Shown here: one piece after another, positions 2,382-34,531 of the stretch
Numbering within the stretch: position 1 is the first letter of the stretch
Layout: the number at the start of each line of letters is the position of its first letter
From: Pezizomycotina sp. ARF18
Lineage: Eukaryota; Ascomycota
Reading direction: 5' to 3'
Assembly (NCBI GenBank): GCA_002224055.1
Contig: AZLU01000152.1
Coordinates: 1 to 64,000, forward strand
Length of the DNA: 64,000 nt
The notes under the pieces: generated by a model
The model's database searches: none
The model's input: the letters and a program-made list of their open reading frames with translations, nothing else
Told to the model about the DNA's origin: nothing
Position numbers and translations under genes: made by a program

Positions 2382-5300
2382 AAAGATATCATCAGTCAAA
2401 CTAGATATGGATACATCCACAAGGGGAAACGCCGCATAGTGATCAAATCGCGAGCCACCCCGCATCTTTCCAAAGTTATCCGCCCGGCGACGTGATCATC
2501 CAGTAGCGGAACCTCATTATACATGGAATGTTAAGTGCTGTAACATACCGAAGAAAAGTCTAAAAGGGACTATTTCCGTGAGTATAATTCTATGCGCGCG
2601 ATTAAAAAATAACTTCCTTGTCCGTCTACTGGGGCTTGATCATCCATCGCAGTTCATACTATCCGAAAACAAATAGCAATAGAACGGCCGAATATAGGGA
2701 AGTAGAGGGAAAGAAAAAGTGCCTGGACCGAAAGATGGCGTGAAGCCAGTGTTACACAATCAAGTTGCAAGCGCTAAACTGCCACCGAACGACCAACACG
2801 AGCTCTATACAAATGCGAGTTCGCTTCTCTCAAAACTGGTCATATTTATTCGTTCGATTGTTATCCGTTTCAGAAGCGATATTTACGCTAAAAAGACGCC
2901 GCTAGTCATAAATCAGAATGCGCAATGTAATGATTATATCACGTCCAGCCGGGCCTGTATGATATTATCAAATGTAAAGAAATGCGAGTTTGCGGAGTCC
3001 GTAAAGTTCACAGATTCAGATGTAAATTCGGAGTGACCAGTCCGTACATACAGGGCTTGTCTGCTTTATGCCAGCAGATCTCCAGACCGACATGATCCGA
3101 TATGGCTTTGCAGATTAATGAGCACATATTTGAAGAGTATATATGGTTTTATTTGTCAGATTATGTCTACTAAAGAAAATCCCCTTGGGTCCACAGTGCA
3201 TATGGACACAAAAAAACATTTTGCATAGAGACTATGATTTGTCTGGGGTTTCGACCGATAGTTTTCGCGAACAAGTTGATTGTAAAGAGTATCTCACATG
3301 GAAGGATATCGCATATTTTTACTCGAAAATTACTCTTTGGCAATGTAACCTTCAATGCGGAACTTCGAGCGGGAGCATATTGTGAAGACATACTAAGCAC
3401 AATCTTTACGGGTGACAGCAGCCGATATTAGCAAGTTAGAACCTTACAATGCGTTACTACGCCTCGAAATCTACCTCTTCCTTTGCCATATTGTAGACAC
3501 CCAGACTGAGAAAAATGCAGTCACTGTAAATAAGGAGTTATCCGAAACTCGCGACAGAATCGGTAATAAATCCAGTTTACCAGACAGCTCAGTATTCGAA
3601 AGACAGTCGAGCTCATAAATATGACCATAACTCTCGATTGCTAGGAGCTAGTCATGGGGCAATGAAGAGAAGGTAGATGTATCCTTAGGACAACTAACCG
3701 CACTTGATACAGCCTTTAAAGAATACTTTTTGGACCGTTGAGCGGCCAAACACTATCCTTTTTATTCTCAGTGCACAAGCGTGATGTCAAGGACAAATTT
3801 AAAAGCGCATGAATCTGTAACATCCTACACGATAATGAAAGACGCAGAACATGCTCTCAGTTTTACCAAGGCCTATGAACGAACCACAGAATAATCTTCC
3901 CTTGCTCTAGGAGAGATTTATATGGTCATGCTTTCGGCCTAGCGACTACTTTTCCGGACCCCCGATAAAGCCCTTCTCTGGAAGAGAAGCAAGAAAATAT
4001 AAGTCAAATTATTTCGATTACGCCGTACACTACTAAGAATTCCTTTCTTTTGCCTTTGGGAGTTCAAATAAATTTCACAAACACTCTACGCGGAAGCTAT
4101 ACACATGTCATATCATCTAGGTCTAACAAAAAGCCGGTTCCCAAACGTTACCCAAAAGAGGGGACTTTTGCAACGATGTTATTTGCTTCTAATACATACA
4201 ATAACAGCTACGATGTTGAGGATACTCCATCATCACCTCATCGGGCCATAGTTTCAATGCTCCAACATAGGTGTAGTTTTTCTTAGCCGTAGAATTCAAC
4301 AAACTGATCTGGGATTTTCATGTTCGTGATCTCTCTCGTCTAGAAGTTCATAACGGGCTTCCAGAGATCCCCTAGAATTTTTACTCTATAACCCGAAGTT
4401 ATACAACTTCGTGAGTTGATAGAGCGAGGTTGGAAAAAGAAAAAAGCATTTAAACCAGAGGCTGCATGCAAAGGATCGCATAGCACGTATCCGCGTACCC
4501 ACACGAGGCATACTAGGTACCTCGCTGTTACCATCAGATATATCATTCTATCCTTGAAAGTGTTACGCCTGCCATCTTTAAATCTGTCGAAGAAAGGGCC
4601 ACTAAAAAAGCCGATAGTTCTGTGTTGTACACCTCTTCTCTTCCTCTTTTCTTTCCTCCTTTTGGTCCCACTTTTCCTTGTTTCTTTTTTTTTCTTTTAC
4701 TTCTCTTTTTCTACCCGTCCTTTCGTGCCTTTATGACTTCAGAGATTATAGTACCGATTATATCTTTTTCCAACTTATTGAAAAATTAGAACACAAGCCT
4801 TAACGACGCTGTTAAGATATCATGGCTTTTTCGTCAGAAGGAAACCAAGATTTACGCTATATCATTCCTATTATTTTACCTTTTCCGACCATAACTATCG
4901 TCTAGCTTTAGACGTCAGCTTAATAAAACCTTAAGGTATCGATATTACAGCAGCAGCGATGTTTGATGAAAGCAGAAAAAGTGAGAAAAGATCAACAGCC
5001 CGGCGATAGCTCCCCAATATGCACAGAAGAGATAATCCAGTCATACTCGAAAACATAATTCAAAGCCTACGAAGACATGGAAATTGCGGAAATGAGGACG
5101 TGCCATAATTCAAATCGTGATAGGTCAAACCGTGCATATTAGCATATGTTTAGACGACCTATCCTCGAACAACGATTCATAGGTCATGGAGGAGTCAAAG
5201 GCCGGCTGCGGTACGGAGCATATGAAATACGAACAATTGGTCTCGACCCTCGACCATATTTACTAAAGCCCTCTTGTATAGAGGAAGATCTCCGCATCTC

Positions 5301-26276: not shown

Positions 26277-27962
26277 TTAAACTTCCTCTCTATCCATATC
26301 ATCTCTTCTCTTCCCTCCCTTGAAACCTTTACCCTTCGGTCCACCATGCTTTCCACCACCTTTCTTCTTCTCTTGCCACTCTCTCAGTTCCCGAACAGCC
26401 GCCCTTTGTGCTTCCCCAACAGTCTCAGCCAGCAGCGCAACTTCCTCCTTGTTGATGCCGTACTCCGGTATCTTTTTCCCCAGCGCCTGCTCTATCCTCA
26501 TAAACTCCTCGACGTCGTATTGCGTAACTAAATTTACGCAGACACCGCTCCTCCCAGCTCTCGCTGTTCTCCCCACGCGGTGGATGTACGTCTTCGAATC
26601 GCCGGCCACGTCGTAATTCAAACGTAATCCACTGCCGGAATATCCAAACCTCTCGCCGCGACGTCCGTCGCAACTAATATGTTCCTCGTGCCCGCCTTGA
26701 ACTTGTTTAGCGCACCCAAGCGGCCCGTCTGCGACAGCTGGCCGTGCAGCGGAACTGCGCCGCAGCCTAACATCCTCAGCAGGAACGCGACGCGCTGCGT
26801 ATCCTGCACCGTCCTAACGAATATGATCATCGGTTTTCCCGCGAATTTATCCGCGACCAGGTACGCCAGGTACGTATCCTTGTGTATCTGCGGCACGAGG
26901 ACGTAGTACTGCAGCAGCGTTTTAACCGTCGAGTATTTCGTGCTCACGGCGACCCTAGCCGGATTCGACAGCGACATCCGCTGCAACCGTTCTACTTTAT
27001 CCGTCATCGTCGCCGAAAACAAAAAGTCCGCCGCTGGCGGGGATGACTTTTAGTATTTTTTCTATTATCGGGCCGAAGTCGAGGTCAAGCAGGCGGTCGG
27101 CTTCGTCCATGACGAGGAATTTCAGCGTGCGTAGGGAGAATCCTTTCGTGTTCTCGAGGTGGTCGAGCAGGCGGCCGGGCGTTGCGACGACGATGTGCGG
27201 TTTCTTAGCGAGGGCGATGGACTGCTGCATCTGGTCCATGCCGCCGACGATGACGGTGGAGCGGACGCCATGGAGCCGCCGAGGGCGTCGAACTGTTCGG
27301 ATATCTGGAACGCGAGCTCGCGGGTCGGCGCTAGTATGCAGGCGAACAGGCCGGAAGAGTTCTCCCAAAGCGCTAAACAGAAAATCACACAATCAACATT
27401 AGTAAGAAAAAAAAAAAAAAGCTCAGAGATTGAGTAGGTCGAAGTGAGATACCTTGCAGTATAGGTAATGCGAATGCAGCCGTTTTCCCGCTACCAGTTT
27501 CCGCCAGACCAATAAGATCCTTCCCGGCTAGCGCCAGCGGTATGGACTCCACCTGAATTGGCGTTGGCGACGTGAAATTCAGAGCCTCGCATGCTTCGCA
27601 CAGCTGGTCGACTATGCCCTATATAAATATCGTAAGCTAGTCTCCTTCCTTTCCTATAATTATGCAACTTGTGGAAAATTGGCTCCTACAAGCTCCCTGA
27701 ACGTCTTCGTCGGTAGGGTATCTACTTGAGCGCTTGTCGTATCATTCGAGCTCGCAGGGGTATCGCCATTCGCAGACGCTGGTTCACCGGAAGCTTTGTC
27801 TATTGTAGAACCGCTCTTCTCCTTCTCCTTCTCCTTCTCCTTCTCCTTCTCTTTCTTTGCCTTCTTCTTAATCGATGCGACGAGGGCGGCAGTCGAAGGT
27901 TCTTCCGTCGGCATGAAATCCGCCGCAATCTTGCGCTTCTTCGTAACTTTGTGATCCGCCAT
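26277..27962 (-). CDS. RRP3: DEAD-box rRNA helicase RRP3
   Basis: RRP3 (human DDX47) is a nucleolar DEAD-box ATPase needed for early 18S rRNA cleavages. Exon 1 (27690-27962) starts [12 protein letters not shown], carries a Lys-Glu repeat and ends TFREL. The first intron (27619-27689) joins it to [22 protein letters not shown] (Q motif). Motif I is AETGSGKT. A second intron (27374-27452) precedes [20 protein letters not shown] (Ia). Then come the motifs [13 protein letters not shown] ([13 protein letters not shown]), [25 protein letters not shown] and [10 protein letters not shown]. The tail is Gly/Lys-rich and ends DDMDREEV. One-base frame jumps near 27015, 27280 and 26615 interrupt the frame without touching motifs. 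It is convergent with RIB5. Confidence 0.95.
27816..27853. repeat. (TTCTCC)n repeat inside RRP3
   Basis: A six-base tandem repeat that codes for the Lys-Glu repeat in the N-terminal tail of RRP3 on the minus strand. Its copy number is likely variable. Confidence 0.85.
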
Positions 27963-28645
27963 TTTGACAGCTCGCTGCGGGTAAGTTGTTGAAAGGCAGC
28001 GATGGTGCTAGCAAGTCCTAGAAGATAGACCCAAAGAACTGCGGAGAGTAAAGAGGGGAGACGCTGTGTGGATTTTCAAAGAAGATGCGAACTAATACCT
28101 GTAGATCTGGTTGATATAGTTTTGGGTAGACCAGCAGAAAATTTCTGTTTTGCGACGGGCGAAATTTTTGAGGCTTAAAAAAGTTTTTTTTTTTTTTTCT
28201 CCCTATATAGCGGATGAGAAAGGGCCTTTTGCTCCACCTATTATCTATCGTTTACTGGTTAATTCTCACTTGTTGAAAACTATGTGCGGAGATATACTTA
28301 GGTACAGTCTAAGTGTATGTATCCTCACGGGCAGTAAGTCTAAGTAAATATCTAGTTACACAAGTAAAACCTTGATGTGTGGTTGTATAGACAGTTTGCC
28401 GTTGTCTAGCCGTTCCTTGTTGTTAGAAATAGTGGAATTTTTCTTTAATAGTCGATCTTGTTTTTTTTTTTTTTTTTTTTGGAGAAAAAAAAAAAAAAAG
28501 GAGTGAAAATCGATAAGTGAGTATCTTTTAACAATAACGATATAAGATTATCCGGTTGTGAAGCGATCATTCAATCGTAGCGGACTACTTAGCTAAATCA
28601 CTTTTCCCTCTGTCTTTATTATAGAGTACATAGGCAACTGCAAAG
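27963..28645. other. Intergenic, upstream of RRP3
   Basis: No gene is seen. It should include the RRP3 promoter. Contains T-runs at 28183-28199 and 28460-28480, the latter followed by an A-run. Confidence 0.5.
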
Positions 28646-28716: not shown

Positions 28717-29003
28717 TTCGTGATGCTTACAGTATTAAATATTAAAATATGATATATATAACACTTACAAATAAGCATCATATACTTATCTATACATAAG
28801 TAATATAGTAGAATTAAATAGTATATAAGCGACAAATGATAGCATGATGTTAGTATTCTAGCCTCTGTCCCTATTCAATTTATATATATAGAGACGTCGA
28901 CGTTTGCTTCGATAGCGGCCAGATAATACGGTAACTCGCCATTCCTTTTTTTTTTTTTATAATATTGCTAGCGAATTAGCTTCCCTCACCTACGAGGTCT
29001 ATG

Positions 29004-29604
29004 TTCCATTTGACTCGCCTACATCCGGATTTTAGGCATATGGCTCACCTACAGTTAAAATTTTGCAAAGCGCAAGCGACCTATATATCAATCTGCAGGC
29101 GACTCATATACTAAATTAAAACTGCTTATAATTCAATCAGCTTTTATTTAATTATTATGAAAACTATATGAAAATGTAGCTAAATGTTTAATCTATAATA
29201 TATCAAGGTATTATTATTAAAATAACTGTAAGTATATTATACTATTATATTATAAATATTTAGTTATTTTTACTACGTCGGCGAAGACATTAACTAGTAA
29301 TTTTATTTTAAAACTTCGTTATAGTTTTAGTATTTTATATGTTATAACAAAATAATCTGCACATATTATTTTTTAGTAATAATTTTAATATCTTATAAAT
29401 TAAATGTTTAGCTACATTTCATATAGTTTTTATAATAATTTAATAAAATCAACTGAATTATAATAGATATTACTTTTGTAATTTGTTTTCTGTTTGGCTC
29501 ACTTACAATCTCTTTAGTGATAGTACATGGTCCGCCTGCAATTTAATGTAAGCGAGCCAGATAGCTATTTGTAGCTGCAAATGGCGTAGGCGAGTCAAAC
29601 GGAA
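29004..29604. mobile_element. 601-bp foldback MITE-like element
   Basis: The ends are 19-bp terminal inverted repeats with one mismatch (TTCCATTTGACTCGCCTAC at 29004-29022, its complement at 29586-29604). The complementarity continues inward over most of the element. The segment at about 29124-29205 is an imperfect inverted copy of about 29385-29465 (shared core ACTATATGAAA and ATGTAGCTAAA). A motif like GGCTCRCYTACA recurs several times in both arms. It is very AT-rich inside and has no coding capacity. This is a non-autonomous foldback/MITE architecture. Target-site duplication is unclear; a TA dinucleotide is possible. A related CCCTCACCTAC lies just outside the left end, so the true border may be a little further out. 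Confidence 0.75.
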
Positions 29605-30662
29605 TATATATGAAATATCGGATAAGGAACCATAAGAATCTCCTGATGGTAAACAAAGTGGCTTACCAAGTTTTGAATGCTCACGATGTTCGTGATAGAC
29701 ACGGTATCAGGTTATCAGCTTTGATTCGCGTAAAAGAATGTTATGATAGATCCAGTTTTTGTCTTATTACCGTAGAAAGAAATAATGTATCCCCACCGAG
29801 CAACACTTCCAAATACAATGTCTTTGAGTTCGTAGCGTAAGGTACCAGGCATTCAGCAACTGGCCCACCCAAGGCGATGCAATGTGTTGCCAGCACTCTG
29901 TAGGCTGTTTCAATACAGCGAGTAGCTTACCATTTGAAATTTTGCTTGCCCACTTATTCACACCGTATCAGTTGTAAAACACCGTCCTACCAGGACCTGA
30001 ACTATACACTCACTTGAGATGTTCACAGGCTTTTATATCACGCAATCGCGGGATTTGTGTTTTTCTTTTGTGAATGACTTGCACAGAGTGAGGCCACACC
30101 TACAGGCGGCCTGAGGCAATTTCATATGTTTTGTAATGAAAACCGAAGACAAAACACGAGTGATGACCCAGATAACAGTCCTACAAGGACAACACCAAAA
30201 CGGGCGGGAGCAGGATACGCCTGAGTAAGCAATCTGTATTCATTTTCAGGGCGGCTGCCAAATAGTACCCACGTCCTTAGTAAAATTGGCTTAAAGACGG
30301 TCATCGGCGAATGTGAAGGCCCTGGTATTTGTAGTGTAGAATCATGCTGCCGTCAAACAGCACAAAAGGACCGAAATAGAAGCGCGAGGCGCATTTTCAG
30401 ACATGAAAGTTTCTGTGATACTCTATCGAAAGATGGCGTGTAGCGCACGCATTGGTCCTGTTTGAAATGATCGGTAATACCGGGTGACGGCTGATCATCG
30501 CACGCTAAAGAAAATGCGCTGCTTCATTTCTGTGCGTCAAGTGTTTCACGGAAACACTCTCTCTTCACAGATAGCAACCGATACCAGCCGCTTCGCAAGC
30601 CCGCCCATCTGCAGGGAAAAAAAAAAAAAAAAAAAAAAAAAAAAGGAAGTAAGAAAGCAAAA
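29605..30662. other. Intergenic, upstream of the RS-protease gene
   Basis: No gene is convincingly supported. A frame at 29610-29840 (+) has no recognisable motif. A 28-base A-run at 30617-30644 lies just before the putative start at 30663, immediately after a CTGCAG that could be a splice acceptor. Confidence 0.45.
30617..30644. repeat. Poly-A tract (28 A)
   Basis: An A-run 18 bases upstream of the first ATG of the RS-rich protease gene. Rigid poly(dA:dT) upstream of fungal genes can keep the promoter free of nucleosomes. Confidence 0.9.
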
Positions 30663-32268
30663 ATGGCGAGCGACCAGCCCAAATTTAGGTCACGTTCGAG
30701 GTCTACTAGAAGAAGCCGCAGTAGTAGATTTAGGTCGCGCTCAAGATCCCAAGAAGCAGGCAGGGTGGAAATAACAGTAGAGATGACAGGCGTCGAGGTG
30801 CAAAAACCGCTACCGCGAGCGATCACCACTGGATAGTTACCCTCGACCAGTAGAATGGCAGTCCCCTCGGCCCTCGAAGAAAGCTAGGTTGCATGGCGGG
30901 ACGAGCGACAAAATGACGGAGTCGAGGAGCCGCCGTGTTTCTCCTTTCAATAGCCGCGGCCGCCATGAGAAACACTCGGACCATCGCCGCGACGGTCTCG
31001 ATTCGGAGTTTAACGGAATGCCGGAGAGGAAGAAAGTTGGCAGCGGCGAACTCTTGGGGCGGGCGAGGGAGTGTGTCGAGAGGGAGACTGTAATCAAATA
31101 CCGCGATAACCGTAGAGTCGTATCCTCAGAATCAATAATTTTGGAAACCATCAAGCTGGATATATCCACAGCAGGCACTAGTTTCTTCGAAGCAGATGAA
31201 GAAACAAGGCGGCAGCTGTCGAGGTTCCTTGGGGCCGCGCCACCCCCAAAAAAATGCCACCCGGAAGCCATCCTATACCTCTCACCCCTACAAACAATTT
31301 GCGTTAGGTGGTACCACGCAGCGACAGGAAAGTACCGATATTCCGTCGGCCACGCCTTTGCTTTTGGTAGACGATACCTTTTCACGGCGGACCACCTTGT
31401 CGAGCCGAAGGATCAGTTCCAATTCGACGGTGTCTATCTAACGGACCCGAGGAACCCGTATAACCGGACGAATGTCAAGCTCGATGTATTTCACCGATGT
31501 CCCACCCTTGACGTAGCGATTCTAGAGAGCAAAATCGCGCTTTTCAAACGGCTGGAGCTTCACTCGTGTGACGCTCAATCGTTCGAAACCGTATACCACG
31601 TTGACTATCTGCAACGCTATCAGCCAAACGTTCATCCTGGCAAGTGCTACAGCAGCTCGATTGACGCTTGGGAGGTCCACGGACGGAGCGACGCTAAGAA
31701 TAGCAAGGGATATTCGGGCGGCCCCGTCGTCTTAAGGAACGGATGGTGCGTTGGTATGCATATACAAGGTGGTGAGATCGATTCCAAGTTCGTCACTACA
31801 GAAGGGCTCTTATTGGCTTTGGAAAAATGCCACTCGGAGAAGAGAATAGGGTATGACCATTGGGGTATCAAATTCTTCGGTGACAGACAGGACCGGGATG
31901 CAAAAAGCGGCGATCCGCCGGCTGGGCCGCCCTTATGGATTGATAGTTGCGAAACTGTCAGGGACGCTCAATTAACCCCGGCAGAGATCGTGGTTATCCT
32001 CCCGGGGAGCGGGCGCAATTCCGGTGCCGGAGCCAGAAGCTCGGACGATACCAGCGCTGGCGACGTCACCGACGCTAGCTCAGGCTCGAAAGTAGACTTC
32101 GAAGGTCAGAATCCCCTCGACGAGGAGGTGAAAAACCAATATTGCGGCCTACATCGCCTCACCGGAAAACTCCCTCGGGTCAACTATTCGCAAACGGGCC
32201 GACTTTCGCCCTTCTGGGCACCGGAGCGTCTGGAAAATTCGGTGCTCGAGTTCTGGAAGGATGAGTAG
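30663..32268 (+). CDS. RS-rich trypsin-fold serine protease
   Basis: From 30913 to 32268 there is a single unbroken frame of 451 codons, the longest in the window. It carries a chymotrypsin-fold core with the whole triad: His in YLFTADHLV (near 31393), Asp in PTLDVAILES (near 31512) and Ser in GYSGGPVV (near 31718), followed by GWCVGMHIQGG. This is the Trypsin_2/HtrA-like pattern of nucleophile loop and beta-hairpin. Upstream, from ATG 30663, is an Arg-Ser-rich stretch (FRSRSRSTRRSRSS) in a neighbouring frame, continued by SRDDRRRG and ESRSRRVSPFNS, so I place the start there; 30913 is the safe alternative. The C-terminal 110 residues are polar and acidic. No signal peptide or membrane helix is visible, so it should act inside the cell, perhaps in the nucleus given the RS-like leader. 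Its substrate and role are unknown. Confidence 0.75.
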
Positions 32269-33104: not shown

Positions 33105-34531
33105 ATGGCCCGCCGCCGCCAAAAGCGCCGCACGCACGTGCCCGACGCCGCCCGCCTGAACCCAGCGCCTCAGCATGCCGTCACCTCCAAAACGCCCATC
33201 CACGCCTCGATGTCGCGGACGCCGAAGACTATGGTCATCCGCGCCGGAGCCGGCCAGGTCGGCCCCAGCATCACGCAGCTGACCCGGGACGTCAGGCGTG
33301 TAATGGAACCGTTCACCGCCAGCAGGCTGCAGGAGCGGCGCACGAACAGGCTCAAGGATTACATCACCATGGCCGGCCCGCTCGGCCGTAACGCAGCTCC
33401 TCCTCTTCTCCCGCTCCGAAAGGGCGAAGGAAACACGAACCTGCGCATCTTACGTACACCCCGCGGACCGACGCTGCACTTCCGCATATTAAACTACTCG
33501 CTGTGCAAAGACGTCCTGAAATCGCAGAAGCGGCCGAGGGGAGCTTCGGGGAAAGAATTCTTGAACCCGCCGCTGCTGGTCATGAATAATTTCATGACCA
33601 ATAACAGCGACGAGCGGCCGAAGAACCACGAGATGCTCGCGACAAGCATGTTCCAGTCCCTTTTCCAGCGATCAGCGCGCAAAAGACGCCGCTGTCGTCT
33701 ATCCGCCGCGTATTACTGCTTAATAGGGAGGTCACGGAGGGAGGCGGAGACGGAGACGGAGAGGATAAACCGTTTACGGTTGATTTACGGCATTACTCCA
33801 TCACCACGAAACCAGTTGGCATTCCGAGGACCATACGCCGCCTGAACCGCGCTGTCACCGGCGCCCCCTCGTCGCGGAAGAAGAAAGGCGACAGCTTTCC
33901 GGACCTCGGTGGGCTGCAGGATATAGCGGATTTCATGCTCGACCCTGCCGCCGCCGGATATACGAGTGAGTCCGAGCTCGACACCGACGCAGAAGTCGAG
34001 GTTGCCGCCGCCGCACCCGTTACGGTAGCTCGGCGTAATGCCCCGAAGGACGGCGAAGTCGTGAAGGGAGATGGGGAAGGGCGATGGTGCGGACGGAAAA
34101 GAAAGCCATAAAGCTGCACGAGATGGGGCCGAGGATACGGTTGCAGCTTGTCAAGATAGACGAAGGCGCGAACGAAGGGAAAGTCCTCTGGCACAACTTC
34201 GTCAAAAAGACGAAGGCCGAGGAGAGGGCGCTGGACATTCGCGCGAAGGAACGGGCGCAGCTCAAGGAGAAGAGAAGGAAGGAGCAAAATGAGAACGTCA
34301 AGCGGAAAAAAGGATGAGAAGGAAGCTCGAAAGAAGAAAAAGATTGAGGCGGAGAACGGCAAGGGTGAAGGAGGCGATGAAGACGAAGATGACGACGATG
34401 AAGATGAGCTGATGAGGGACGATACGGTGTGGAGCGGCGACGAAGATATTTGGAGCGATGTAGCAGAAGGGGAAGAAGAAGACGAAGATGAAGAAGAGGA
34501 AGAGGATGACGTTGAGATGGAAGACGAATAG
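33105..34531 (+). CDS. SSF1: Brix-domain ribosome biogenesis factor SSF1
   Basis: SSF1 (metazoan PPAN) is a nucleolar Brix protein that binds pre-60S particles and is needed for 27S rRNA processing. The start MARRRQKRRTHV is the usual basic N-terminus. The Brix domain shows KTMVIRAGAGQVGPSITQL, RRVMEPFTASRLQERRTNRL, KDYITMAGPLG, NTNLRILRTPRGPTLHFRI, NYSLCKDVLKSQKRPRG and FLNPPLLVMNNF. In neighbouring frames it continues with GYTSESELDTDAEVEV, then KKAIKLHEMGPRIRLQLVKI and a Lys/Glu helix, ending in a long acidic tail (stop 34529-34531). No intron is evident. One-base frame jumps occur around 33390, 33670, 33835, 34070 and 34310, all outside the best-conserved motifs. Confidence 0.93.

Follow-up and report, generated by a model that had tools for sequence, protein, structure and literature searches.

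A candidate intracellular serine protease of the Trypsin_2 type and its probable Arg-Ser-rich leader in Pezizomycotina sp. ARF18

What is a trypsin-type protease doing in a fungus when it shows no signal peptide and is preceded by an Arg-Ser-rich (RS-rich) leader? The question is raised by positions 30,663 to 32,268 of a 64,000-nucleotide stretch of the genome of Pezizomycotina sp. ARF18, which represents bases 1-64000 of contig C152 in an assembly of 46.4 Mb and 408 contigs and is hereafter called the window. Intracellular trypsin-type proteases are few compared with the secreted ones, and those that are known (FAM111A, Ssy5, HtrA2) have regulatory or defence roles. Our analysis favors the reading, to which we assign a probability of about 0.5, that a host gene of the fungus encodes a serine endoprotease of clan PA (Trypsin_2 type) that works inside the cell and probably in the nucleus. 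If it is true, the protease, whose leader resembles those of splicing factors and whose specificity is predicted to be narrow, would make regulated proteolysis, possibly nuclear, amenable to genetic study in a fungus. Even if the protein is no more than an unexplored offshoot of a widespread fold, secreted trypsins and HtrA do not cover all fungal S1 proteases.

A Trypsin_2 domain with a complete catalytic triad

We searched the window protein against Pfam-A and found a single family at E <= 1, namely PF13365 (Trypsin_2), with an E value of 2.8e-7 and a score of 31.8 bits against a cut-off of 27.6. The match lies at 31354..31758 on the plus strand, as do all features of this gene given below, and spans positions 3-144 of the 144 positions of the profile. 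The same search against NCBIfam gave no match at E <= 1. The codons of the catalytic His (TADH, 31393..31395), Asp (TLDVAIL, 31510..31512) and Ser (GYSGGP, 31714..31716) were assigned by motif and by alignment with a secreted-type protease encoded on C34; the spacing is 39 residues from His to Asp and 68 from Asp to Ser. In an alignment of four sequences, all three residues coincided with the His, Asp and Ser of the C34 protease, while in the remaining two rows the His and Ser coincided and the Asp did not. This bears out the complete triad that a first-pass annotation had read from the DNA letters, and the Pfam score above the cut-off points the same way as its trypsin-fold assignment.

Judged by its sequence, the window protein is a trypsin-type serine protease of clan PA, Trypsin_2 type, with predicted activity. 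Its enzyme class is very large and very common; within this class, the protein is diverged and has an unusual leader. With the Trypsin_2 proteins (PF13365, clan PA, MEROPS S1) it shares the near-full profile match, the His-Asp-Ser triad and the GxSGGP loop. Unlike Trypsin_2 proteins in general, it has a long RS-rich N-terminal part and an acidic tail, and no close relative was found in the prokaryote and virus collections.

The protease frame is very probably coding

The protease is encoded in frame 1, in an open frame of 493 codons from stop to stop plus the stop codon (30787..32268). Starting at the ATG at 30913, 451 stop-free codons reach 32265, and the stop codon occupies 32266-32268. The stop-to-stop frame (30787-32265) is the longest of the window in all six frames, the runner-up having 353 codons. 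Among 28 closed frames of at least 230 codons found in 20 sampled 10-kb stretches of the genome (one of which contains 2,906 N; frames running off the end of a stretch were left out), the longest had 371 codons. Frames longer than that of the protease do exist in the genome (607 and 640 residues). Furthermore, codon usage preferred the protease frame (+28.7) to the other two (-86.6 and -37.6), whose scores are also penalized for stops. The family match, the codon use and the comparison with a second copy, described below, rule out a chance open frame, and the protease gene is very probably real.

A second copy and the search for relatives

Compared with its own genome, the window protein matched itself and one other locus, C17:135795-136477. 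A frameshift-tolerant alignment of the two contained 126 identical residues in 299 pairs and scored 375, compared to 35-48 in six mononucleotide shuffles. We then counted 141 in-frame codon pairs, taken from well-aligned blocks, which favors the third-position pattern somewhat, and found 52, 43 and 94 differences at positions 1, 2 and 3, respectively; 29 of the 73 identical residues had the same codon. The excess of differences at the third position indicates that both copies have long evolved as proteins. As far as these alignments tell, the window protein and the C17 copy are a real protein family.

Outside this genome, scans of IMG/VR and GTDB starting from exact 8-residue peptides, which reach close relatives only, gave no relative, and neither did a phage collection searched with the 218-residue core only. 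Searches of PDB sequences returned no trypsin-type chain; a Dicer matched the RS-rich part at E 0.67, and otherwise there was no match at E <= 10. Among the literature results listed, none dealt with a fungal trypsin-type protease with an RS domain, which is weak evidence of absence as the wording serine/arginine-rich was not covered. The absence of close relatives thus holds for the prokaryote and virus collections, fungal proteomes being outside the scope of the search. A plasmid search gave 10 Curtobacterium records at E 0.09; the 40 aligned residues surround the catalytic Ser, and the product of the frame looks secreted. On the Curtobacterium flaccumfaciens plasmid, such a frame (3236-4174), for which no gene is listed, encodes a serine protease that looks secreted and that resembles the window protein in the loop following the Ser (YGVHVQGGD).

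An RS-rich leader, a basic N terminus and an acidic tail

The Arg-Ser-rich leader, MASDQPKFRSRSRSTRRSRSSRFRSRSRSQEAGR, is located at 30663..30764 in frame 0. Its ATG lies within AAAAATGG, which we take to be a good start context, and from this ATG at 30663 frame 0 reads MASDQPKFRSRSRSTRRSRSSRFRSRSRS, with a stop at 30834. The leader carries a charge of +10 over 34 residues. Its RS run, with 14 RS/SR dipeptides per 30 residues, is the only site in the window with at least 8 of them (stop-free segments, six frames). In the first 40 codons, Arg is encoded by four and Ser by six different codons, and this abundance of synonymous codons indicates a repeat at the level of the protein rather than of the DNA. 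Between the leader and the protease frame, a short frame-2 stretch, NNSRDDRRRGAK (30770..30805), continues the RS/RD style and might, by its composition, be a weak bridge. The protease frame itself begins with a basic region of 108 residues (30787..31110), which has a charge of +11, 30% Arg plus Ser and the motif KKAR, presumably similar to a nuclear localization signal and therefore a possible nuclear signal. It ends with an acidic, polar tail of 123 residues (31897..32265; charge -8), the first part of which alone has a weak counterpart in the C17 copy.

The RS stretch is probably part of the protease gene, because RS-type residues occupy the equivalent place in the decayed C17 copy. The first-pass annotation had described an uninterrupted frame of 451 codons preceded by an RS-rich stretch. 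Its continuity stands for the protease frame (ATG 30913-32265) but not for the leader, which sits in other frames; the RS run that it noticed is real and is probably part of the same gene, but in a different frame.

Signal peptides were assessed by hydropathy only, without SignalP. The mean over 19 residues reached a maximum of 0.91 (from residue 116 on). At the N ends it was -0.3 in the first 60 residues after the ATG at 30913 and 0.24 in the RS leader frame, compared to 0.93 in the secreted-type C34 control. This agrees with the signal peptide having been called absent at first reading, and a secreted fungal trypsin was rejected on the strength of these hydropathy values. In the absence of a hydrophobic segment, the enzyme should remain intracellular.

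A predicted preference for Glu or Gln

The sequence GMHIQGG contains a His 15 residues after the catalytic Ser (31759..31761). By counting, this His matches the place of His213 in Glu/Gln-specific enzymes (PMC5508998). The C17 copy retains it (GTHLAG). The window protease thereby resembles the glutamyl endopeptidases (V8, Glu-SGP) and the viral 3C-like proteases, which have a His at place 213 after the Ser (PMC5508998). In contrast to them, it has an Asn in place of Ser/Thr at position 190 by counting, no signal peptide is apparent, and no polyprotein was seen. We propose cleavage after Glu or Gln because of the His at the His213 place of V8- and 3C-type enzymes. As the Ser/Thr190 companion is replaced by Asn, this preference, which is drawn by analogy, is likely but not sure.

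Proposed mechanism and relation to known proteases

In the mechanism that we propose, the enzyme would be recruited to nucleic acid or to RNA-protein bodies of the nucleus through its basic, RS-rich N-terminal part. The central domain, predicted to have two barrels, would act on a small set of selected proteins and most likely cleave them after Glu or Gln. The acidic tail may keep the basic leader or the active site covered as long as no signal or self-cleavage event releases it. We infer the nuclear place, the Glu/Gln preference, the control by the tail and the union of leader and protease in one protein despite the frame breaks. By analogy, the window protein could be a regulated, site-selective nuclear endoprotease that works as FAM111A does (PMC9798293) or as proteases of the Ssy5/SltB type do (PMC4557415), being a demonstrated member of neither.

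FAM111A and FAM111B, animal Trypsin_2 proteases at nascent DNA, are likewise intracellular Trypsin_2 enzymes, and if the window protein is nuclear its working mode would be alike (PMC9798293). However, FAM111A self-cleaves after Phe (PMC9798293), and FAM111 proteins have two ubiquitin-like domains, whereas no Pfam match precedes the protease in the window protein. A more far-reaching version, which we regard as highly unlikely, is that of a 3C-like host protease with a Glu/Gln preference, tethered by its RS part to chromatin or RNA, that would act as the fungal counterpart of FAM111A against DNA-protein blocks, mobile elements or viruses and was perhaps anciently captured from a barna-like RNA virus.

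The statement that chymotrypsin-fold enzymes of fungi are normally either secreted trypsins or HtrA/Nma111-type proteins proved too narrow, as Ssy5 (PMC5567314) and SltB (PMC4557415) have been described. Ssy5 is listed as S64 (PMC5567314). SltB of Pezizomycotina has 1272 residues, with an N-terminal pseudo-kinase and a predicted PA-type protease domain, and its authors found no stand-alone protease relatives (PMC4557415). Like the window protease, both are non-secreted fungal proteins with a PA-type domain (predicted in SltB), and both are tied to the control of transcription factors (PMC4557415, PMC5567314). Unlike SltB, the window protein has no kinase match in Pfam at E <= 1. Unlike Ssy5 and the S64 family, it lacks PF08192 among its Pfam matches at E <= 1; this profile matched nowhere in the genome, and its control was silent as well. 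An HtrA/Nma111-type protein was also rejected, as no PDZ match follows the protease and Pfam shows nothing besides Trypsin_2 at E <= 1.

Frame breaks and the possibility of a decaying gene

Several observations weigh against a single functional protein of the kind proposed. First, the leader (frame 0) is out of frame with the protease (frame 1), with the RS-like piece in frame 2 between them, and codon usage does not mark the frame of the leader as coding, although an RS run has unusual codons in any gene. An intron could not be found to join the two parts: among the 32 open-frame GT-AG combinations (41-200 bases, donors at 30700-30835), none had a YTRAY branch-point match, which rejects an intron without proving its absence. 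Second, AlphaFold run without an alignment on 264 and 188 residues gave a predicted local distance difference test score (pLDDT) of 32.1 and 30.9, which is uninformative on the fold. Third, the residue at place 190, counting back from the Ser, is Asn (KNSKGYS) and not Ser/Thr, and, as the review notes, His213 by itself does not determine specificity (PMC5508998). Finally, the C17 copy has several frame breaks and stops and no His at the TADH place in any of the three frames. In a plain protein alignment its read-through shows 39% identity, and Pfam gave no match to it at E <= 5. Of the 299 aligned pairs, about 20 draw on window frames other than that of the protease, and the RS part into which the alignment extends at its start is short and of low complexity. 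The protease family may be dying out in this genome.

Similar frame breaks affect conserved genes of the same assembly. The Ssf1/Brix-domain gene at 33105-34528 of the window matched chain Cg of PDB entry 8i9r, which we take to be from Chaetomium thermophilum, with E 5.8e-50, better than the yeast and human chains, which points to a filamentous ascomycete. This gene, the yeast counterpart of which is presumably essential, shifts its reading frame near 33665 with no residues lost. A DEAD-box RNA helicase gene (26280-28007, minus strand; Rrp3/DDX47-like by eye) is scattered over several frames. Genome-wide, chaperonin pieces gave 33 matches, including a pair on C53 with consecutive profile positions one base apart and a pair on C54 that overlaps in different frames. 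Because the breaks in the Ssf1 and chaperonin genes leave no room for an intron, assembly indels suffice to explain the shifted leader. We therefore favor small indels over an intron, given these breaks and the 32 introns without a branch-point match, and such indels probably separate the leader from the protease frame.

These data also bear on the reading that the locus is a pseudogene or a dying gene, with its leader severed by real frame breaks as in the C17 copy. Such a gene would account for the two frame changes between the RS leader and the protease and for the broken second copy. We nevertheless consider it unlikely: 493 codons are open, the triad is intact, and as conserved genes show similar breaks, those seen here need not be real.

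A viral or a defence origin

Alternatively, the gene could derive from an integrated RNA virus of the barnavirus or sobemo-like kind, whose protease the fungal genome has captured or keeps as a relic. A viral source had been set aside at first reading in favor of a host gene; the host gene is still favored, but the dismissal was too quick, since open reading frame 1 (ORF1) of a barnavirus of a fungus bears a PF13365 peptidase (PMC9147972). ORF1 peptidases of this kind, with a PF13365 or V8-like domain as in the window protein, are reported from viruses that infect fungi or nematodes. Such an origin fits the GxSGGP loop and the subsequent His, the triad spacing and a long intronless frame in a genome whose sampled stretches contain few long frames. 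On the other hand, the genome had no match to RdRP_4 (PF02123), RdRP_1 (PF00680) or Peptidase_S39, although the controls for RdRP_4 and Peptidase_S39 matched nowhere. Barna-like ORF1 proteins have membrane and VPg regions and an overlapping RNA-dependent RNA polymerase, whereas in the window protein no membrane segment precedes the protease (the highest 19-residue hydropathy mean being the 0.91 given above). An RS-rich leader is absent from the barnavirus parts named in the source. In addition, the short-peptide scans of IMG/VR gave no relative, the codon use fits the host, and the recognized neighbors, Ssf1 and the DEAD-box helicase, are housekeeping genes. Overall, we find a viral origin improbable.

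Very improbable, finally, is an effector role for the protease in the cytosol, in a pathway of non-self response or cell death, like the fungal protease/gasdermin pairs or the bacterial defence proteases. In PADLOC, the domain was matched by the models RT-Protease_XI (E 3.3e-9) and LmuA (2.7e-4), and partner proteases, mostly classed as serine proteases, cut fungal gasdermins (PMC12881547); but RT-Protease_XI is generic and says little beyond trypsin-like, as it also matches 12 of 14 control genomes and the C34 protease, the named gasdermin partners are of the S8 and CHAT types (PMC12881547), the word trypsin is absent from the text of PMC12881547 and PMC9815663 (trypsin types still being possible), Pfam shows no sensor domain in the window protein, and the recognized neighbors are the same housekeeping genes, no gasdermin-profile search having been made.

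Additional observations in the window and the genome

Just upstream of the protease gene, at 29000-29608, we noticed an AT-rich foldback element. Its terminal inverted repeats (TATGTTCCATTTGACTCGCCTAC) measure 23 bases and are 91% complementary, and its inner arms are long. Compared with the genome, the element matched only itself and its own palindrome.

The genome seems to hold other non-secreted PA-type frames, as those on C32, C330 and C45 also look unsecreted by eye, with undefined gene starts. C65 and C74 have the look of the HtrA/Nma111 type, again by eye. A Trypsin_2 frame of 296 residues at C330:15333-15707 has no obvious signal peptide by eye, and GISGAI is found in a neighboring frame. 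At C32:106097-106612 lies a Trypsin_2 frame of 180 residues, for which PADLOC gave a match to LmuA at 4.8e-6. The PA-type frame at C45:121904-122065, GGGSGGPVLTIDG, has tandem half copies, with TARHVF at the His place in one and AARPIF in the other.
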